64,000 bases of DNA. Origin: Desulforamulus putei DSM 12395. GTDB lineage: Bacteria > Bacillota > Desulfotomaculia > Desulfotomaculales > Desulfotomaculaceae. The position numbers were made by a program, and so were the translations under genes. Below are positions 4,136 to 48,950 of this stretch, in pieces; position 1 is the first letter of the stretch; the number at the start of each line of letters is the position of its first letter. The notes under the pieces were generated by a model. That model saw only the letters and a list, made by a program, of their open reading frames with translations, made no database searches and had not been told where the DNA came from. The stretch lies in the NCBI RefSeq assembly GCF_900129195.1, contig NZ_FQUY01000006.1, positions 62,001 to 126,000 of the forward strand. The letters run 5' to 3'.

Positions 4136-7100
4136 TTAACCTGCGTTTTGGGCAGGCCTTTTTTCATTGAGAAATTCGGTAAAGCGATCCAGGGAGACCG
4201 GCGCCACCGGGTCGCCCTGCAACAGTTCGTGCAGCACACCGGCCATGGCCCTGGCGGTATCCAGGGAAGTTAAGCAGGGTACCTTATACTCCGCTGCCAG
4301 ACGGCGCAGGCGGAAGCCGGGTCGCCCGGGCACCTTGCCCCGGGTGGGGGTATTGATCACCATTTGGACACCGCCGGAGCGCACCAGGGCCAAGGGATCT
4401 TCGGTGCCCACCACCGGCAGCCCGGCGGAGGCCAGGGCGGCAGCGGTATTCATGGTGGCGTACAGCTTAAAGCCCAGGTTGGCGTACTGGCGGGCCACCG
4501 CCACGGCCTCCAGCTTATCCCGGTCCGCCACCGAGAAAAGGACGGCACCGCTTTTGGCCACCTTCATTCCGGCGGAGACAATGGCCTTGTAGAAGGCATG
4601 GGAGAAGGATTTGTCAACCCCCATCACCTCGCCGGTGGATTTCATTTCCGGTCCCAGGGAGGTTTCCACCAGCCCCAGTTTTTCAAAGGAGAATACCGGC
4701 GCCTTGACAGTAATATGATCGGACACCGGACCCAGTCCGGGGAGGTAGCCCAGGTCCGCCAGGCTTTTACCCAGCATGCAGCGGGTGGCGGTTTGTACCA
4801 TGGGAACCCCGGTGACCTTGGAGAGAACCGGTACGGTCCGGGAAGCCCGGGGGTTCACTTCCAGCACAAAGACCTCGCCGTCGCCCACCACGTATTGAAT
4901 ATTCATCAGCCCGCAGATCTTTAAGGCCCTGCCGATGCGCAGGGTATAGTCCACCACCTGCTCCATTTCCCTCTGGCTCAGGCTCTGGGGAGGATAGACG
5001 GCAATGCTGTCCCCGGAGTGAACCCCCGCCCGCTCGATGTGTTCCATAATGCCGGGGATAAAGATATTCTGGCCGTCACCGATGGCGTCCACTTCCACCT
5101 CTTTGCCCCGGACGTATTTGTCCACCAGCACCGGGTGCCTGGGGGACACTTGTACCGCGCTGGACATGTATTTCAGCAGCTGGTCGTCATTGTAGACAAT
5201 CTCCATGGCCCGGCCGCCCAGCACGTAGGAGGGGCGCACCAGCACCGGAAAGCCCAGGTCTGCCGCAATTTGCCGGGCTTGCTCCACAGTGGTGGCGGTT
5301 TTCCCCTCGGTCTGGGGGATGCCCAGGCTTTTTAGAAGTTTTTCAAATTTCTCCCGGTCTTCGGCGGCGTCAATGCCCTCCACCGGGGTACCCAGGATGT
5401 TCACGCCCAGTTCCGCCAGGTCGCCGGCTAGGTTGATGGCGGTCTGCCCGCCAAACTGGACAATGACACCCAGAGGCTTCTCTTTATCAATGATGTTCAT
5501 GACGTCTTCCACCGTCAAGGGCTCGAAATACAACTTGTCGGCGGTATCAAAGTCGGTGGAAACGGTCTCGGGGTTGTTGTTGATAATAATGGCCTCAATG
5601 TTTTCCTTCTGCAGGCCCCAGACCGAGTGCACCGAGCAGTAGTCAAATTCCACGCCCTGCCCGATGCGGATGGGGCCGGAGCCCAGCACAACCACTTTGG
5701 GCCGCCCGGACACTGCCACCTCATCCTCGGCATCATAGGTGGAATAGTAATAGGGTGTGGAGGCTTCAAACTCGGCGGCACAGGTGTCCACCACCTTGTA
5801 GGTGGGCAAAATACCGTATTGCTTGCGCAGTTCACGGATCTCTTTCATAGATTTGCCGCACAGGCGCCCGATGTGGGCATCGGAGAAGCCGCAGACTTTG
5901 GCCCGGCGCAGCAGTTCTTGATCGGGAGGGCCGCCGGCGTTCCGGATTTGCTGTTCCAGCACCACCAGGTCCTTGATCTTTTCCAGGAACCAGTAGTCGA
6001 TGCCGGTCAGCTGCTGAACTTCCTTCAGGGTCCAGTAGCGGCGGAAGGCCTCGGCCACCACAAACAACCGCTCGTCATCCGGCCGGTTCAGTTTGCTTTC
6101 CAGCTCCATCTCGGTCCAACTGGCGCTGCCTTTGATTTGCAGGCTGTCCACGCCGATCTCCAGGGAACGCACCGCCTTCATCAAAGCCCCTTCAAAGGTA
6201 CGGTCAATGGCCATGACCTCGCCGGTGGCCTTCATCTGGGTGCCCAGGGTCCGGTCGCCGCTGGCGAACTTGTCAAAGGGCCAGCGGGGAATTTTAACCA
6301 CCACGTAATCCAGGGTGGGTTCAAAGCAGGCCGTGGTCTTGCCTGTAACCGGGTTGGTAATTTCATCAAGATTCAGCCCAATGGCAATTTTGGCTGCCAA
6401 TTTGGCGATGGGGTAGCCGGTGGCCTTGGAGGCCAGGGCCGAGGAACGGCTAACCCGGGGGTTTACCTCGATAACGATATAGTTCATGCTGTGGGGGTCC
6501 AGGGCAAACTGCACGTTGCAGCCCCCGGCCACCTTGAGGGCCCGGATGATCTTCAGGGCGGCACTGCGCAGCATTTGATATTCCCGGTCGGACAGGGTCT
6601 GGGAGGGCGCCACCACGATGCTGTCCCCGGTATGCACCCCCACCGGGTCAATGTTTTCCATGTTGCAGATGGTAATGCAGTTGTCCGCATTGTCCCGCAT
6701 CACTTCATATTCGATTTCTTTCCAGCCGGCCACACTGCGCTCCAGCAGCACCTGGTTGATCATGCTCATCCTGAGGCCCCGGTGGCAGATGGCGGTCAAT
6801 TCCTTCTCATCCTTGGCGATGCCGCCGCCGGTGCCCCCCAGGGTATAAGCCGGGCGGACAATGAGCGGGTAGCCGATCTTGTTGGCAAATTCAATACATT
6901 CCTCCACCGTGCTGGCGATGGTGCTTTCCGGGATGGGCTCCCCGATTTCCAGCATGGTGGCCCGGAAAAGCTCCCGGTCTTCGGCCTTTTTAATGGTTTC
7001 CAGAGAGGTGCCCAGCAGTTCCACGCCGTACTTTTCCAGGATGCCGCGCTCAGCCAGTTCCACCGCCATATTTAGACCGGTCTGGCCGCCTAGGGTGGGC

Positions 7101-18750: not shown

Positions 18751-18828
18751 TGTCCGTATACCCTCCTTACTGCACTGGGCCAAATTACGACAACGGGGCG
18801 GGAATCGCAACTGGCCACACATAATAGT

Positions 18829-18857
18829 ATTTTAATCGATTAAAAATAGAGTGTCAA
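18829..18857 (-). promoter_or_regulatory. Strong sigma-A promoter for rplM-rpsI
   Basis: The minus strand reads consensus TTGACA (18852-18857), a 17-base spacer and TAAAAT (18829-18834), about 80 bases before the rplM start. The remaining leader could hold autoregulatory structure but none is recognised. Confidence 0.8.
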
Positions 18858-18888
18858 GTGTATGAACATGACTTGGTGGTATTTCTTT

Positions 18889-18949
18889 AGCCATCAGCCA
18901 TCAGCCATCAGCCATCAGCCATCAGCCATCAGCCATCAGCCATCAGCCA
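18889..18949. repeat. Tandem heptamer array (AGCCATC), 8.7 copies
   Basis: Eight exact copies of the seven-base unit AGCCATC plus a partial one. On the other strand the unit reads GATGGCT. The following 35 bases resemble those after the second array at 21820-21893, so both arrays belong to one dispersed element. No spacers, hence not CRISPR. Confidence 0.95.
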
Positions 18950-19385
18950 ATTTTGGGGCATTGTTAAACTTTTGTCAAGTGCTGTCTATGTTATCATCTT
19001 ATTTAGTAATAAAATCTGCTGCGTGGTTACGGCGGTTCCTCCATGGTTAGCTGTCCCTTATCTGCCCAGGAGGGTATTTTTTTCAGGTCAGACGACCAGG
19101 ACTCCAACTGCATATCTGTTGAACCCGGTTGCAGGTATTTTTATACAAATTAATCTATCTACCTAAGAGAAAAAAAGAGAGCGCCACTGTGAAAAGAGCG
19201 CTATTCAATATTTCAATTTTTAATTAATTATAATCTGTTCTATTTTCTTAATTTTTTCCATAAAAAGTGTAAAAATTCTACAAAATTGATATGATACAGT
19301 TCTAAAATACTTCTAATAATTTTCATGATCAGCAGATATAAGACTATAAGGAATAGAAATTTCAAAATATAATCCATGACCCATC
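18950..19385. other. Non-coding A/T-rich stretch
   Basis: Lies between the heptamer array and the decayed sigma-factor locus. A possible hairpin, GAGCGC with GCGCT near 19178-19202, lies at its centre. No open frame with family similarity or a ribosome-binding site is seen on either strand. Confidence 0.4.
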
Positions 19386-19655
19386 CTTAATAGTTTACGG
19401 AATAAAGGTTTTGTCAAACCTTGTATAACCAGATGCAGGGATTTCTTTTGTCAAAATTCCATAGCCATTTACATCAATATAATATCCTACAGTATAATCA
19501 TAGTCAAGTTGTAAACAGGGATTGGCCTACATCATTTGTTTCTGCTCTTTCTATTTTATAAGTACCCATCGCCTCAACCGGTAGTAAAATATCATAAGGA
19601 ACATCCTTTAAAGCACTGGAACGGAGCTATATTCGCCGTGTTTACTCATTCTTAA
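19386..19655 (-). pseudogene. Remnant of a sigma-factor-partner-like gene
   Basis: Two short frames on the minus strand read as one broken protein: ALKDVPYDILLPVEAMGTYK, then after a frameshift a piece including YTVGYYIDVNGYGILTKE and ending TRFDKTFIP. The segments look like the extracellular part of an anti-sigma or DUF4367-type protein, but that is a weak assignment. It lies directly downstream of the sigma remnant, with an ATG (MSKHGEYSS) overlapping its stop, as expected for a sigma/anti-sigma pair. Confidence 0.45.
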
Positions 19656-19667
19656 CACCGTCCTTAA

Positions 19668-20000
19668 ATCCACTTACTTCAATGTAACCTTCTTTTATTA
19701 ATCTTGCTTTTATAAAACCTTTTTCCCTATGGAGCAATATTTTTATTGTTCCCTCAGGCTTAGCAAAGCTATGTTTTTAACTTTCATTTCTTCAAAATAA
19801 CGTAGGTGTATTACCTGTCTCATAATAGGATCGAGAGACTGTATAGCATCATTAACAGCTGTTACTGTTACAGTTTCCTGGGAATCAATTATATATTCTG
19901 GAATATCATCAAAGGATTCGATCATTGATATAGAAGTTTCCAAACTAACATCTCTATTACAGGCTATCTTTTTTGAAAAAATATTCTAGATACCTTAGTC
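19668..20000 (-). pseudogene. Frameshifted sigma-70-family (ECF-like) remnant
   Basis: The minus strand encodes SLDPIMRQVIHLRYFEEMKV (19743-19943 frame), typical of sigma region 4.1. The helix-turn-helix continues in another frame as AKPEGTIKILLHREKGF, ending with TAA near 19668. Another shift near 19975 separates the upstream TKVSRIFFQK piece. At least two frameshifts therefore break the gene. A sequencing error is less likely because the partner gene is also broken. Confidence 0.65.
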
Positions 20001-20138
20001 CCAGTTATGTATGTGTGTTCTAATTTATCGGGTACAGAGAATTTATTAGTTTTGCACGAATCACGAATAAAGACTCAACTGTCAGATATTAGCTGATTGT
20101 TGGGCCTTTACCCAGACCCCTTAGGAATAATCGAAAAC

Positions 20139-38669: not shown

Positions 38670-38761
38670 GGTCTTATTCTCCCTTCGTCCGATTGTGCGG
38701 ACTGCTCCGTGAAAATTACCTCAGGGTGCGAGCAACCTTCCACTTCATCGCTAGTCTAACT

Positions 38762-42430: not shown

Positions 42431-43177
42431 CTACCCTCTCTGGCGTACCACCTCATATATCAATAATGCAGCTGCCACCGAGGCATTGAGTGATCCAACG
42501 TGACCCGCCATCGGCAAACGAACCAGCATATCACATCGCTCTTTGATCAGCCTGCCAATGCCCTTTCCTTCACCGCCAATAACCAGCAGCAGCGGACCGG
42601 TCAGTTTTGCCTCCCAATAAACTTCGGGGCCCTCCATATCCGCCCCCACAACCCATATCCCCCTGTCTTTTAACTGTCGGATGGTTTGATCCAGGTTGGT
42701 TACCCGGGCCACCGGAACATATTCCACCGCACCCGCCGAGGCTTTGGCCACAGTGGAGGTCAAGGCTACAGACCTTCTCTGGGGTATGATGACGCCATGG
42801 GCGCCGGCGGCATCCACCGTACGAAGAATAGCCCCCAGGTTATGGGGATCGTTAATTTCGTCCAGCATCACGATGAAGGGATCTTCTCCCCTAGCGCCGG
42901 CAATCTCTAAAATGTCTTCCACTTCCACATATTCTTTGGCAGCAGCATAAGCAACTATTCCCTGGTGGGGGATTCCCGGGTTTAATTTGTCCAGGTTGGT
43001 TCGTTCAACCATCTGTACCGGAACATTTTTCTCCCTGGCCAAGTTCATGATCTCGGACAAGGGGCCGGCACCTGTTCCCTTTGCTACTATGATTTTATTT
43101 ATGGGACGTCCTGCACGAAGGGCCTCCCTTACCGGATTTCTTCCGGCAATGATTTCACTCACAAGATTCCCTCCCAT
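42431..43177 (-). CDS. rlmB: 23S rRNA 2'-O-methyltransferase RlmB (SpoU family)
   Basis: Methylates a conserved guanosine in the 23S peptidyl-transferase region. The 248-residue protein has an N-terminal RNA-binding part and a SPOUT knot with DEINDPHNLGAILR, VIGGEGKGIGRL and LPMAGHVGSLNASVAAA. The last two are the cofactor-binding motifs. It starts 15 bases after the small membrane-protein gene. Confidence 0.94.
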   Translation of the reverse strand: MGGNLVSEIIAGRNPVREALRAGRPINKIIVAKGTGAGPLSEIMNLAREKNVPVQMVERTNLDKLNPGIPHQGIVAYAAAKEYVEVEDILEIAGARGEDPFIVMLDEINDPHNLGAILRTVDAAGAHGVIIPQRRSVALTSTVAKASAGAVEYVPVARVTNLDQTIRQLKDRGIWVVGADMEGPEVYWEAKLTGPLLLVIGGEGKGIGRLIKERCDMLVRLPMAGHVGSLNASVAAALLIYEVVRQRG

Positions 43178-43192
43178 GGTGCTTAGACTAAA

Positions 43193-43360
43193 TTAGATTC
43201 GTTGCAACAACCACTTCAGCCACAAAGTTAAAATCAGCCCACCCAGTGCCGATAATATTCCCAGGAATAACAATCTTTTACGGCGGGAAAGCACTCCAAT
43301 GACTCCCAAAGTCAGAGCAATACCCCACAGTGCAAGGATTATAAAAGGGAGTGTTTTCAT
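43193..43360 (-). CDS. Small hydrophobic protein, 55 aa, two membrane helices
   Basis: A 55-codon frame from ATG 43360 (MKTLPFIILALWGIALTLGV at the start) to TAA. AGGGGA lies six bases upstream. Two hydrophobic stretches (about residues 4-20 and 31-49) flank SRRKR, which predicts a hairpin with its loop in the cytoplasm. It is directly upstream of rlmB on the same strand. Function unknown. It may belong to rlmB or be the end of the accessory island. Confidence 0.6.
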   Translation of the reverse strand: MKTLPFIILALWGIALTLGVIGVLSRRKRLLFLGILSALGGLILTLWLKWLLQRI

Positions 43361-43387: not shown

Positions 43388-44485
43388 TTAAAGCGGACAA
43401 GCACCACCACAACGCTCGCAACCTTTGGTTCTTTGGCCGAAAATACATGTACTATGTTCCCCTCTGTATTTTGCAATCTCCAGATCAACCGCATCGTCTT
43501 TAAGTATATGAATATCAATAATATGCGCAGCAATGCGAGCTGCTTTGACTGCCTCTATGGTAGATTCTATAGTTGGTGTTCCTCCTGTATGTTCTTCACG
43601 AGTAACAGCAGCAAGTATATGCGCACATCCTTCAAGACCGAGCAATGTTGCGCCAATGGCGGCAGACACATGGTCCATTCCAATTGCAATATCTGTAGGA
43701 ATTGGTCCAAGAGGCATCACAGGAAAATTACCCTCTCGCAGTATGGAAGCTATTTTTTTAATATCTTCTGGCCTTGCATGGCCCGGGGATTCAATAATAA
43801 CCCCAACACCATCCTTTGCAATCTTTTTAGCTAAATCTAGCTGAAATCTAATTTCTTTTTGTTGAGCCTCGTCATTGGAGTCAAAAATATTTGCCGAACG
43901 AAAAGTCGTCCCAATACTTATTACCGTCCCGTATTTTTTAGCCGCAGATATTAATTCCGGTAATATAGTTAAATAAACATTATCTTGCTTCCACCCTTTG
44001 ATTGCGGCATCCTGAAGAACAATCCCTCCGCCACGAGAGGTACAAGGTACCAAACGTTTTTGAGACAGTTCAAAAAGCTCTTTTGTTGGGGTTGGGTGGA
44101 TGGTTATGATTCCTACACCCTGTTCCATTTGTTCTAGGCAAATATCAAGAAGTTCATCTGAGGAGATTCCCCTGTTCCCAAATCTTACTACATAAACCGG
44201 AACAGTCGCAGCAATACAACCAGTCTCCATAATAATCTGTAACCATAAGGGTTTTTTATTTCTTAATCTTATTATACTCAAGTCGCTTATTATATCTGGA
44301 CCATCTAACATGGAGCTTAATAATTCAATTTTTCGTAATTGTAACTTATAACAATCCTCGTTATTTGCTCCTATTAAGGCTGCCACTAAGGTTTTTCTCT
44401 TTCTACCCGCCTCGATCCACCCATTTTTAAATCTCAGTTTAACTATAGATGTATCCTTTATCGATGTAGAATTTTTTCTATACAT
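43388..44485 (-). CDS. Divergent ThiC-family (phosphomethylpyrimidine synthase-like) protein
   Basis: A 365-residue homologue of ThiC, the radical SAM enzyme that makes the thiamine pyrimidine from AIR. Family landmarks are visible but altered: EQMEQGVGIITIHP, TSRGGGI, FRSANIFDSNDEAQ, ESPGHARP (usually EGPGHVP), LGPIPTDIAIGMDHV and REEHTGG. The two histidines that bind metal in ThiC are kept. The C-terminal cluster motif is CERCGGAC (CX2CX3C) where ThiC has CX2CX4C. It lacks the N-terminal region of standard ThiC (usually 430 residues or more). Its start overlaps the end of the SIR2-SLOG gene by 28 bases. Codon use is A/T-rich. A true thiamine role is doubtful, and the substrate is unknown. 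Confidence 0.75.
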   Translation of the reverse strand: MYRKNSTSIKDTSIVKLRFKNGWIEAGRKRKTLVAALIGANNEDCYKLQLRKIELLSSMLDGPDIISDLSIIRLRNKKPLWLQIIMETGCIAATVPVYVVRFGNRGISSDELLDICLEQMEQGVGIITIHPTPTKELFELSQKRLVPCTSRGGGIVLQDAAIKGWKQDNVYLTILPELISAAKKYGTVISIGTTFRSANIFDSNDEAQQKEIRFQLDLAKKIAKDGVGVIIESPGHARPEDIKKIASILREGNFPVMPLGPIPTDIAIGMDHVSAAIGATLLGLEGCAHILAAVTREEHTGGTPTIESTIEAVKAARIAAHIIDIHILKDDAVDLEIAKYRGEHSTCIFGQRTKGCERCGGACPL

Positions 44486-45816
44486 GAAATAACATCCTCA
44501 GTTTTAACACAAAAACGTTTTGCCTTTTCAAAATAATCCTTATCAACTTGTTCCAAAAAGTCCGATATTTCCCGGTCCCCAAGAATTTGTTTCATAAATT
44601 CAGTCTCTTTTTGTGCTACCGGAATTATTTTGCATTTAAATGCTCTGGCAATTTCAAACTCTACAGAAGTACCAATCCCCCCGTCAAATACAACCACTAC
44701 TTGGGTGGCATTAAAAAGCTTGGCCCTCAATCTTTTTAACTCTGGGATTAACTTCGGATTATCTGAAAAATCAGGGTTAGCTGCATAAGGATTAGGGAAA
44801 GTGTGGAGTCGTTCAGTAATGTCCATTTTCCGTTCTATACATTCTTCTGTAAATGACGCCACAACATCGCTCCCTATCCCAGAAGATTGACCACTGTGTA
44901 ATACTATATTTTTTATATTTGCAAGACGTTTACCAATCTCCCGTGCCATCGGGTCACTCACTTTATGTGACCCCGTACAATAAACTGTATTACCACGAGA
45001 TTTACTACTAACTTCAAATAAAACCTCTTTTAATTCATCGTAATGATCAATTAATACACAATTTATACCAAAACGCCTTAAGTCTTTACACCAAAGAAGC
45101 TGTCTTTTTTCTTCTTCTTTATTTTTTTTATTTCCTTTAATCCTGTCCAAGACCATAAAGTGTTCTTGAGTTGCTCTTTGACAAAGACGTCTAGCTTCCA
45201 CCATAATGTTTCTTAAATTAGGATCTCTGTAACTATATCCAATAAATAAAAATGATTTGGTAGATAAATCGTTTTCTAATCTTTTTGCAGTAGCTGGTCG
45301 ATTTACCAGAAAGTCTTCATAGTCTTCTTGAGTTATAACTAATTCGTTCTGAGGTGAACTACTAATGCAACCGTGCATTTTAATGAGTTCAATTTGATGC
45401 TTTAAGACTGGTCGTGAAATAGCACCATCATTATTCTTAACGACCAAATCAAAATTTCTAAACGCCTTTTCGAGAAGTGTGTCATAATTTGTGGTCCAAA
45501 TGGTTGATATTCTAGTAAGAGTGAGTGCCTGATGGTATATATTTAGGGCGTATTCTTTATTTAAACAACGAATAATTTCATTAATTAGCGGTCCTCTATT
45601 TCCTGCATATAAGTTAACTATATATTGAGCAATCAAGGGTAGCTCGTCATCTCTTTTAATTTGTATGCCCAAATTTTCAGAAAAAGGTTGAAGTAACCCA
45701 TACCAATCTACACCACAGGACTCCTTTGATATTCCGCTTCCAACAAAGATTGCACCACGGTTTTCATATAAAGCTTTTGAAAACCTATTTATTAAATACT
45801 TCTTATCACAAATCAC
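44458..45816 (-). CDS. SIR2-SLOG protein resembling Thoeris ThsA
   Basis: A 452-residue protein. Residues 1 to about 270 are a SIR2-like NADase domain (FVGSGIS at 24-30, WTTNYD with Asn110, KMHGC with His148, FIGYSYRDPN at 191-200). Asn110 and His148 correspond in position and motif to the ThsA catalytic residues. Residues from about 276 are a SLOG domain (VYCTGSHKVSDP, SGIGSDVV, FDGGIGTSVEFEIA), which in ThsA binds the signal nucleotide. ThsA has about 476 residues and works with a TIR protein; none is seen here. GTG 45816 follows GGAGGAGGG at six bases. Defence by NAD depletion is inferred. Confidence 0.8.
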   Translation of the reverse strand: MICDKKYLINRFSKALYENRGAIFVGSGISKESCGVDWYGLLQPFSENLGIQIKRDDELPLIAQYIVNLYAGNRGPLINEIIRCLNKEYALNIYHQALTLTRISTIWTTNYDTLLEKAFRNFDLVVKNNDGAISRPVLKHQIELIKMHGCISSSPQNELVITQEDYEDFLVNRPATAKRLENDLSTKSFLFIGYSYRDPNLRNIMVEARRLCQRATQEHFMVLDRIKGNKKNKEEEKRQLLWCKDLRRFGINCVLIDHYDELKEVLFEVSSKSRGNTVYCTGSHKVSDPMAREIGKRLANIKNIVLHSGQSSGIGSDVVASFTEECIERKMDITERLHTFPNPYAANPDFSDNPKLIPELKRLRAKLFNATQVVVVFDGGIGTSVEFEIARAFKCKIIPVAQKETEFMKQILGDREISDFLEQVDKDYFEKAKRFCVKTEDVISCIEKILHR

Positions 45817-46119
45817 ATGTTCCCTCCTCCTATAATGGTTTTAGAACCACCGGACAACCAAAATTCCAGTTCGGGAACTATGTGGGATGGTCCGGATGGT
45901 TAGGGAACCGGTTCCCCCCCCCAGCTTTATGGTGATGGGTTCTCGCAGCAGCTCATTCCTTGCCCCGCAAAGGCTTACCTGGACCAGATTCCATCTGGTG
46001 AACATAACAAAGGGAGAAAACGTTTATTGCGGCCTTTTTTAGCTTTTGATGCCCAAAAATTTCCATTTTTTCGCAAAACAGGGGCTTGAAATTTTACCGC
46101 TGGGCTAATTTAGCATAAC
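45817..46119 (-). promoter_or_regulatory. Structured leader before the SIR2-SLOG gene
   Basis: A 303-base gap without coding capacity. It holds a seven-pair hairpin (ACCAGAT/ATCTGGT, 45983-45999), a perfect palindrome GGGAACCGGTTCCC at 45903-45916 next to a run of C, a stem AACCACCGGAC with GTCCGGATGGTT (45845-45855 with 45890-45901) and AGTT/AACT at 45869-45880. The last stem ends about 15 bases before the ribosome-binding site. It looks like a regulatory leader or small RNA; no known family is recognised. Confidence 0.5.
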
Positions 46120-46938
46120 CTAAAACTTAACATTTTTTAATAATCTTAACGCCTCATTTTTGGTTATTATTTTCCCTTTACAGTCTTGATGCTGTAACTC
46201 ATTCTCAGGGCAATATCCAAGGTTAACGCAATTGGGGCCAGCATTTACAAAAAGCTCCGGAGCTGTGTTCTTGCAAATATGTAACATTTTATTGGCTAAG
46301 TCTCTAATTTCTGTTTGTGCTTTTTTGCAACAACGAATACTAAACCAGTCGTTCAAAGCATGAGCATTCATGCCAATTAAAGCTTTAAATTCTGTAGCCT
46401 GTGGCTTAAGATATCTTAGTTCTTCTTCCTGAAACCCTTGCCGAACCCCCATCTCATACCACAGTTCTAACAATTCTAATATCTCGTCTACCCCAACTGA
46501 ATAAGCAACCTCCTTTTCCTCTGAGGACAAATAATTCCGCAAAGGAGTTCCGTCACTTAAAGTCAGAGAATCTATTGGTATTTTATATATTATCCTGTTG
46601 TCTTCAATTCCTTTTGGTATGACTACGTCAAAGGATCTTTTTCCGCCCTTGTTTGTCCTACCAGTTTTAATCATATAAGAGGCTAACCTTTTACGAACCA
46701 ATTGAACTTCTGTAACCCTAGCGTATCCTTCAATGCCAAAAAGAAAAAAATCAAACTCTAACGCTGCTTTATGTCCGCTATTTACAATTTTTAAAACTAA
46801 TTCCTTGGAATAAGGTGAAGCAATAATCTCATCTAATGACCTTTCTGAACTGACAAACCTTGCAGCAATATCAGTATATACCCGGCCCCCGCCAGCAATT
46901 AACCGAACTTTACCTTCGCCTACATACTTTTTGTTCAT
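46120..46938 (-). CDS. thyX: Divergent ThyX-like flavin-dependent thymidylate synthase
   Basis: A 272-residue ThyX homologue. ThyX makes dTMP from dUMP with FAD and methylenetetrahydrofolate. Visible are SGHKAALEFDFFLFGIEG, the motif VRKRLASYMIKTGR (82-94) and the second half ATEFKALIGMNAHALNDWFS followed by AQTEIRDLA. The usual RHR triplet is RKR (82-84) and the later S-x-R is T-x-R. The C-terminus has a GPNCVNLGYCPE cysteine pair. ATG 46938 follows GGTGAGG. It is A/T-rich like the two downstream genes and might be core or part of the island. Confidence 0.75.
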   Translation of the reverse strand: MNKKYVGEGKVRLIAGGGRVYTDIAARFVSSERSLDEIIASPYSKELVLKIVNSGHKAALEFDFFLFGIEGYARVTEVQLVRKRLASYMIKTGRTNKGGKRSFDVVIPKGIEDNRIIYKIPIDSLTLSDGTPLRNYLSSEEKEVAYSVGVDEILELLELWYEMGVRQGFQEEELRYLKPQATEFKALIGMNAHALNDWFSIRCCKKAQTEIRDLANKMLHICKNTAPELFVNAGPNCVNLGYCPENELQHQDCKGKIITKNEALRLLKNVKF

Positions 46939-47062
46939 CCGCTGCCTCACCCCAAAAAATTTAGTGTTACTGTAAGTAATAGATACTCTTTTAGTTACAA
47001 CGTTAATTTGCAGAGTTCAAGTTTGAAACCGTCCCCGTTGAAAATTTCATTTCATAATAATC

Positions 47063-47473
47063 CTAGTTGTTGCCTGTTTTTGTTATTGCCCGTATCGCCA
47101 GGTCGACAATTTCCCTCACCCTGTCCTGTTTGCCCTGTAAGTACAGGTAGCCGAGCAGGGCCTCTAGGGCGGTGGCGTGGCGGTACTCCACGATATCGGC
47201 GCTCCTGGGGGGCGTGCCGGACTTGGCGTTGCGGCCCCGGCGGACAACCGCCATTTCTTCTTCGGAAAGTTTATCCTCCAGGGCGAAAAGCGCTTTCGCC
47301 TGGGCGCCGGCACGCACATACTTTACGGCTTCCCGGTGGAGACGGTTTACTTTAGTGAATCCTTGTCCCACCAGGAACTGCCGAATGGCCAGTTCATAAA
47401 CGGCATCCCCTATATAGGCAAGGACCAAGCTGGGCAATTCTTCAGGTTTTTGATTTTTTGCCAATTTATCCAT
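47063..47473 (-). CDS. mrnC: Mini-ribonuclease III
   Basis: A catalytic-domain-only RNase III that matures 23S rRNA ends. The 136-residue frame (from ATG 47473) has LAYIGDAVYEL and RRGRNAKSGTPPRS, and EALLGYLYL with the second acidic site. No double-stranded-RNA-binding domain follows, as expected. The start is uncertain: TTG 47485 follows AGGGG closely, and GTG 47512 would overlap cysS by 26 bases. It is downstream of cysS, the conserved order. Confidence 0.93.
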   Translation of the reverse strand: MDKLAKNQKPEELPSLVLAYIGDAVYELAIRQFLVGQGFTKVNRLHREAVKYVRAGAQAKALFALEDKLSEEEMAVVRRGRNAKSGTPPRSADIVEYRHATALEALLGYLYLQGKQDRVREIVDLAIRAITKTGNN

Positions 47474-47486
47474 GTATTTTAACAAG

Positions 47487-48950
47487 TTACCCCTGCTTCT
47501 TCCACCGGACACCCTGGGGTGTGTCTTCCAAAATAATCCCCAGTTCCTTTAAACCGTCACGGATGGTGTCGGCGGTGGCCCAATCTTTTTTACTGCGGGC
47601 CTCCTGGCGGATCTTAATGATCAGCTGGATCAGTCCCTCGGTCAGTTTATCATCGGCGCCTGCAGCGTCAATCAACAACCTGCCGGTCATTTTGTCTTCC
47701 TTTAAAATACCCAGCACACAGTTAAAGTCTTTGACCAGGGCGTGTGCTTTATCCAGCAGTTTTTTCTCTTCCGAAGTCACTTTACCGCCCAGTTTGCCCA
47801 CAAAGATATTGATTTCTTTAGCCAGTTCAAAGAACACCGAGATGGCTAGGGCGGTGTTAAAATCGTCCTCCATGGCCTTTTCAAATTCTAACCGGAGGGT
47901 CGCCAGTTTTTCCTCCAGGCCGTCGGCAACAGGTTTTTCTCTCTCTTCTTGATAAACGGGCAGTTCCATTGCCTCGTAAAGCAAGCGAAGGGCAGTTTTA
48001 ATGCGGTCCAAACCTTTGCCCGCCATGACAAGCTTTTCATCATCAAAGTCCAGGGGGCTGCGGTAGTGGGTGGAAAGCAAATACCAGCGGACCACATCCG
48101 GGGGGAATTTGGCCAAAATCTCCCTGACTAAAAAGAAGTTCCCCAGGGACTTGGACATTTTTTCCTGGTTTACGGTAATAAAGCCGTTATGCATCCAGTA
48201 ACGGGCAAAGGGCTCCCCGCAGGCTGCTTCGGATTGGGCAATTTCATTTTCGTGGTGAGGAAAGATCAAATCAAAACCCCCGCCGTGAATATCAAAGCCG
48301 CTACCTAAATACTTTTCAGCCATGGCGGAGCACTCGATGTGCCAGCCCGGGCGTCCCGGTCCCCAGGGGCTGTCCCAGCTGGGCTCGCCGGGCTTGGCTG
48401 CTTTCCACAGGGCAAAGTCCATGGGGTCCTTCTTTCTGGGATCCACCTCCACCCTGGCTCCGGCCTGCATGTCTTCCAGGCTCCGGCCCGATAGTTTACC
48501 GTAGGCAGGGAAGCTCCGAACAGCAAAATAAACGTCCCCGTCAACGGCGTAGGCATGGCCCTGCTGCTCCAGCTTCTTGATCAGGTCGATGATTTCCGGA
48601 ATATGTTCAGATACTTTGGGATGTGTGTCCGCCCGCATAACATTCAGGGCATCTGCATCTGCAAAAAACTCCCTGATGTATTTTTGCGCCAACTCCAGCG
48701 GGTCCGTTTTTTCTTCCCTGGCCCGGTTAATAATTTTATCATCTACGTCTGTAAAGTTCTGAACAAAATTTACTTGATAGCCTTTATAAATAAAATACCT
48801 TCTGACGGTGTCAAAAAACACCAGCGGCCGGGCATTGCCAAGATGAATAAAGTTGTAAGTGGTGGGCCCGCAAACATACATGCTGACTTGTCCTTTGTCT
48901 CTGGGAACAAACTCTTCCTTTGTTTTAGTCAGGGTATTATAAATTTGCAT
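47487..48950 (-). CDS. cysS: Cysteinyl-tRNA synthetase
   Basis: Charges tRNA-Cys. The 487-residue class I enzyme has the HLGN form of the HIGH motif near residue 35, zinc-binding cysteines ([25 protein letters not shown] region) and KMSKSLGNF near 265. ATG 48950 follows GGAGGGGG, and the last base of cysE is shared with it, so the two are coupled. Confidence 0.97.

Follow-up and report, generated by a model that had tools for sequence, protein, structure and literature searches.

A SIR2-SLOG gene paired with a ThiC-family radical-SAM gene on a thymidylate-synthase replacement cassette of Desulforamulus putei: a possible relative of Thoeris

The analysed stretch comprises 64,000 nucleotides (nt) of the Desulforamulus putei DSM 12395 genome (contig NZ_FQUY01000006.1, positions 62,001 to 126,000; in the following the window). 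It contains three minus-strand genes between the core genes mrnC and rlmB, which code for a ThyX-like thymidylate synthase, a SIR2-SLOG protein and a ThiC-like protein of the radical S-adenosylmethionine (SAM) enzymes. Judged from its sequence, this group is a horizontally acquired A/T-rich cassette, which has taken the place of the native thyX at this locus in a clean exchange. The SIR2-SLOG gene and the ThiC-like gene are found side by side at the corresponding position in other genera too, and thus their pairing is more than chance. The pair looks like an undescribed relative of Thoeris; should the signal turn out to be controlled by the radical-SAM enzyme, it would be categorically new. 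The cassette comprises the following features:

46120-46938, minus strand: ThyX-like gene, 272 amino acids, inside an open reading frame (ORF) opening at 46950
45817-46119, minus strand: gap of 303 nt between the ThyX-like and the SIR2-SLOG gene
44458-45816, minus strand: SIR2-SLOG gene, 452 amino acids, GTG start, with SIR2_2 and STALD SLOG (Pfam)
43388-44485, minus strand: ThiC-like gene, 365 amino acids, with ThiC_Rad_SAM (Pfam), overlapping the SIR2-SLOG gene

An earlier note on this DNA had described three A/T-rich minus-strand genes between mrnC and rlmB with an overlap of 28 nt, and both the coordinates and the base composition agree with this description. The GC content of the three genes amounts to 35-40% compared to 50-54% in the flanking genes, and at third codon positions to 25-32% compared to 55-63%. 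The overlap of the SIR2-SLOG and the ThiC-like gene (44458-44485) is 28 nt in the window and 25 nt in the genomes G424 and G142, taking the first possible start; the two genes are presumably translationally coupled.

Genomes were searched for the pair across the phylum (398), in the class of the window (113) and in the Syntrophomonas class (63), about 530 overall, and the rlmB loci were also read directly beside the whole-genome searches. The ThiC-like gene was found in four genomes (the window genome, G142, G424 and G464) and in no other of the roughly 530; these four represent four genera from two classes. In all four it adjoins the SIR2-SLOG gene, and the pair lies between a thymidylate synthase of non-native type and rlmB. 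The earlier note had named as a refutation that the two genes are never again found as neighbours, which was not the case; chance neighbours are ruled out by the recurrence. The intact pair genes elsewhere are 57-58% identical to those of the window. A scan of a genome collection returned one ThiC-like relative with 58% identity in Syntrophomonas wolfei subsp. methylbutyratica (L010), which is G142 by its coordinates. In the search of the 398 genomes no SIR2-SLOG gene of the pair type was found without the ThiC-like gene; the next match showed an E-value of 9e-50 compared to 6e-165 for G142. The three other loci comprise, in this order:

G142 (L010): mrnC, ThyA, DHFR, SIR2-SLOG, ThiC-like, rlmB
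G424 (L085): ThyA, DHFR, SIR2-SLOG, ThiC-like; pair intact
G464: ThyA, SIR2-SLOG, ThiC-like; each gene of the pair carries a frameshift or an interruption

The nine other genomes of the family all showed the core order mrnC-thyX-rlmB without the pair, in most cases preceded by cysS and followed by yacP, and the same plain order was observed in nearly all other genomes read at the locus. A non-native synthase without the pair was found in three genomes, either as ThyA-DHFR (G196, G418) or as a ThyX of the window type (G431). The latter (L108, 3858-4721) is 65% identical to the window ThyX, shares its RKR motif and lies directly before rlmB; therefore, the variant ThyX also exists alone. At the locus of G418 (L087, 2820-4717), two genes in opposite orientations, recognized by eye as signal-peptide-peptidase-like and RDD-like membrane protein genes, separate mrnC from ThyA-DHFR; thus, other cargo is accepted here too.

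The assignment as a horizontally moved cassette replacing thyX is based on the recurrence at one site, the plain thyX of the family-mates and a clean exchange within Syntrophomonas. In the latter case, G142 and G024 share 95-96% nucleotide identity on both sides of the exchange: on the left as far as position 4827 of L010, where mrnC stops at 4825, and on the right from 9169 onwards, with rlmB starting at about 9170. The interval enclosed by these breakpoints holds the cassette in G142 and thyX in G024. The window holds 3.6 kb in place of thyX, and its nucleotide similarity to the family-mates is lost at about 47093-47150 and returns at about 43374, past the stop codon of the ThiC-like gene. 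The borders are formed by the following native features:

47063-47512, minus strand: mrnC, left flank, with Ribonuclease_3 (Pfam)
43193-43360, minus strand: hydrophobic ORF of 55 amino acids just beyond the cassette, marking the right border
42431-43177, minus strand: rlmB, right flank, with SpoU_methylase (Pfam)

On the minus strand the order of transcription is cysS, mrnC, the ThyX-like, the SIR2-SLOG and the ThiC-like gene, the 55-amino-acid ORF, rlmB, and finally a YacP-like and a sigma-factor gene. The checked family-mates also showed the small ORF, located 3' of thyX and before rlmB. Traces of the exchange are present in two further genomes. Between the cassette and rlmB, G424 retains a native thyX that is truncated at its 5' end and starts at the RHR motif. 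In G196, the SIR2 gene survives as its initial 48 nt 3' of DHFR; 34 of the 48 are identical to G424, which was reached in none of 100,000 shuffles, and therefore the pair was probably once present there and later deleted. Furthermore, the cassette ThyA proteins share 80-87% identity, compared to just 44-68% for mrnC and rlmB of the same genomes, and the GC content of the cassette was 31-40% at every locus measured. At the cassette edges, neither terminal repeats nor att sites were detected above shuffled sequence. For the ThiC-like gene, an origin from phages or plasmids was rejected, since the matches reached at most 35% identity and were annotated as ThiC where annotated at all. The nearest matches in phage collections to the cassette ThyA of L010 (5223-6068) were human faecal phage contigs with 60-69% identity. 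A transposase remnant suspected by eye to the left of ThyA in L085 (about 6434-6900) was not confirmed by Pfam.

The window ThyX comprises a Thy1 domain (E 1.6e-27, above the Pfam cut-off), while its score of 78 bits against TIGR02170 lies under the cut-off of 88. In place of the motif RHRxxSxxxxSxRY it carries RKRLASYMIKTGR, so that RKR...TGR stands where the family has RHR...SxR, and the ThyX signature test was negative. Compared to the thyX products encoded at this locus by the nine family-mates, the identity is 30-33%, while it is 64-87% for rlmB (80-87% within the genus, 64% for G009) and 63-80% for mrnC. Since neither a second ThyX nor a ThyA nor a thymidine kinase was detected in the window genome, the substitute ThyX, its variant motif notwithstanding, is probably the only route to deoxythymidine monophosphate (dTMP) there by known enzymes. 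The native thyX slot between mrnC and rlmB is thus filled by a ThyX in the window and by a ThyA with or without DHFR in its relatives. The earlier note had considered ThyX as the source or control of a nucleotide pool; the role of a special nucleotide supplier, always of the same type, is not borne out. It is a substitute housekeeping synthase, in whose place the unrelated ThyA, with or without DHFR, stands in the other genomes.

The view of the earlier note that the SIR2-SLOG protein is a ThsA-like effector is supported. Besides the Pfam domains SIR2_2 (E 7e-31) and STALD SLOG (E 1e-6), it matches the PADLOC model of ThsA with an E-value of 6e-82 over residues 4-450, nearly its full length, and the ThsA structure 6lhx in the PDB with 7e-44. 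In ThsA, Asn112 and His152 are required for the cleavage of NAD+ (PMC7272460); they align to N110 and H148, which are invariant among the intact pair proteins. In the SLOG domain, S283, F340, R364 and E386 correspond to S288, F357, R371 and E403 of ThsA. Lys388 coordinates cyclic ADP-ribose (cADPR) in the SLOG domain of ThsA (PMC10022894). The loop with the GNK lysine, taken as Lys388, is retained by the TIR-linked relatives but deleted from each of the four pair proteins. Accordingly, the test for the 3'cADPR pocket (Arg371, Lys388, Glu403) was negative, with Arg and Glu retained and the Lys loop gone. Moreover, no TIR gene is present at the window locus, whereas a TIR neighbour was seen for each of the nine ordinary SIR2-SLOG relatives that were examined, four of them chromosomal and five plasmid-borne. 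Altogether, the pair resembles Thoeris in its two-gene operon and its full-length ThsA-like SIR2-SLOG protein with the NADase Asn/His and the SLOG Ser/Phe/Arg/Glu retained. It differs from Thoeris in the deleted Lys388 loop, in its location on a thymidylate-synthase cassette and in the ThiC-family radical-SAM gene replacing the TIR gene, for which no match was found nearby or, by PF08937, in the genome.

The ThiC-like protein belongs to the ThiC_Rad_SAM family (Pfam, E 4e-50) but is shortened at both ends. It scored 170 bits compared to the ThiC equivalog cut-off of 410, so the equivalog test was negative; altogether, the ThiC-like scores of 114-170 bits are far below the cut-offs of 410-700 for ThiC/BzaB-type proteins. 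Based on the site residues of AtThiC (PMC4389238), the SAM and metal site is retained (R196, E298, H236 and H299, equal to Arg386, Glu489, His426 and His490 of AtThiC), as are the cluster cysteines C356/C359/C363, the phosphate site (Tyr286, His322, Ser342, Arg343 and Gly344 in AtThiC) and Glu422 and Leu259. Changes compared to AtThiC are N228L, D383T, Y449M and the replacement of Met572 in the cluster loop by Arg, in all relatives with the site present. In AtThiC, Asn228 contacts the ribose hydroxyl, Asp383 the imidazole N3 and Tyr449 the C5-amino group of aminoimidazole ribotide (AIR) (PMC4389238). These three residues are kept in seven local ThiC proteins as well as in AtThiC, and the AIR-recognition test was negative for the ThiC-like protein. 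Because the SAM, metal and phosphate residues are kept while the three AIR contacts are replaced, the enzyme should still be capable of SAM radical chemistry, with a substrate that is anchored by its phosphate and probably is not AIR. The lost contact to the ribose hydroxyl (Asn228) would fit a deoxynucleotide. The claim of the earlier note that a radical-SAM enzyme stands where the TIR partner would be expected is supported, with no ThsB-TIR detected and the substrate site altered. Compared to ThiC/BzaB-type paralogues, the protein shares the Pfam family, the SAM, metal and phosphate residues and the CX2CX3C cluster of the local ThiC, but differs in its shortened ends, its replaced AIR contacts and Met572 and its far lower scores. 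The CX2CX3C spacing, tried as an unusual trait, was dropped, since the local canonical ThiC shows the same spacing (CTMCGDFC).

Concerning other parts of the window, the 303-nt gap between the ThyX-like and the SIR2-SLOG gene showed no Rfam match and no second copy within the window, and its interpretation as a structured RNA was rejected (z -0.18). An A/T-rich region at 18823-20138 (GC about 33%) contains no ORF of at least 90 amino acids and no Rfam match at the gathering cut-off; it has two ribosomal-protein-like genes on one side and a tRNA pseudouridine synthase-like gene on the other. At 38685-38756 on the minus strand, an S10-Clostridia ribosomal leader was matched with a score exactly equal to the gathering score.

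In Thoeris, a partner enzyme controls the nucleotide read by the SLOG domain, and the loss of NAD+ aborts the infection. The observed architecture, recurrence, locus, replacement and pattern of retained and changed residues can best be explained, tentatively and with somewhat less than even confidence, by a Thoeris-like abortive-infection module, in which a radical-SAM partner replaces TIR and which is carried on a thymidylate-synthase replacement cassette. The substitute synthase would take over the essential step after displacement of the native thyX and keep the cell alive, and it possibly links the sensor to thymidylate metabolism as well. The ThiC-family enzyme would act on a phosphate-bearing substrate other than AIR, probably a nucleotide, and would thereby set the level of the SLOG ligand. 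Once the SLOG domain is engaged, SIR2 would hydrolyse NAD+, and phage growth would stop along with the cell. NADase activity, signalling link, trigger, anti-phage role and substrate are the parts of this module which we infer. A more specific version appears unlikely: the ThiC-like enzyme would make or destroy a new nucleotide messenger derived from a deoxypyrimidine nucleotide of the linked synthase step, and the modified SLOG domain would read it and switch the NADase, resulting in a branch of the Thoeris type free of cyclic ADP-ribose.

Several observations weigh against the module. The defence-island setting considered in the earlier note was not found; the pair sits at a conserved thymidylate-synthase locus instead, its neighbourhood is housekeeping, and copies of the ThiC-like gene on viruses or plasmids were not found. 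In G464 the pair is decayed and in G196 it is deleted, and therefore it is dispensable. No ThsB_TIR was detected in the window genome (G000), G142, G424 and G464, although it was sought by PF08937 only, which a diverged TIR could escape. Finally, the AlphaFold models calculated from two-sequence alignments reached a predicted local distance difference test (pLDDT) of 43 and 38, which is too poor for pocket tests.

Another explanation, which we consider doubtful, would be a metabolic guard, with the pair monitoring thymidylate and folate/purine flux instead of a trigger specific to phages. The ThiC-like enzyme would use or make a nucleotide tied to the synthase, e.g. dUMP or dTMP, and the NADase would fire when phage or antifolate disturb the pool, so that the synthase is a functional partner and not just the landing site. 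This is consistent with the constant association of the pair with a thymidylate synthase in all four genomes and in the remnant of G196, with the distance of 10-13 bp between DHFR and SIR2-SLOG in G142 and G424 and with the loss of Asn228, which would suit a deoxynucleotide. However, two unrelated synthase types work, so a specific protein contact is not conserved, and similar synthases occur at the locus without the pair in G196, G418 and G431. The overlapping genes, the NADase-type toxin and the mobile cassette at an easily reverted locus would also suit an addiction module, in which toxin and control enzyme punish the loss of the cassette and thereby stabilise the substituted synthase, which recombination with native mrnC-thyX-rlmB DNA could otherwise revert. 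Since G196 lost the pair yet retained ThyA-DHFR, the pair of G464 decayed and radical-SAM enzymes are not known as an antitoxin type, this is considered decidedly unlikely.

The match to ThsA over the full SIR2-SLOG length could alternatively indicate an ordinary Thoeris effector, whose adjacent ThsB was lost and which is served by an unlinked TIR, with the ThiC-like gene as an unrelated passenger. The missing ThsB_TIR match (by PF08937) and the missing Lys388 loop in all four genomes, as well as the conservation of the overlapping ThiC-like gene across classes, render this quite improbable. The ThiC family is chiefly biosynthetic, which would agree with separate housekeeping roles, i.e. a vitamin-type ThiC paralogue located by chance beside an unrelated SIR2 protein. 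This appears very improbable, as the window genome has its own canonical ThiC elsewhere (C17), the ThiC-like protein lies far under all ThiC/Bza cut-offs and lost the AIR contacts, and the pair is conserved and moves together.

In the literature search, no paper was found that joins ThiC with SIR2 in one system. A thymidylate synthase domain was validated in another anti-phage locus found by DefensePredictor (PMC13092281), which indicates that such a domain can belong to a defence locus; judged from the text of the paper, in which SIR2, ThiC and radical SAM are not named, its architecture is a different one.

If the Thoeris-like module holds true, SIR2-SLOG immunity would not be bound to cyclic ADP-ribose made by TIR, and a radical-SAM enzyme could occupy the signalling position. 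Furthermore, a mobile element would enter its host by swapping the essential thymidylate synthase for its own working copy, with a defence module as cargo. With G142 and G024, Syntrophomonas provides a close pair of genomes with and without the cassette.

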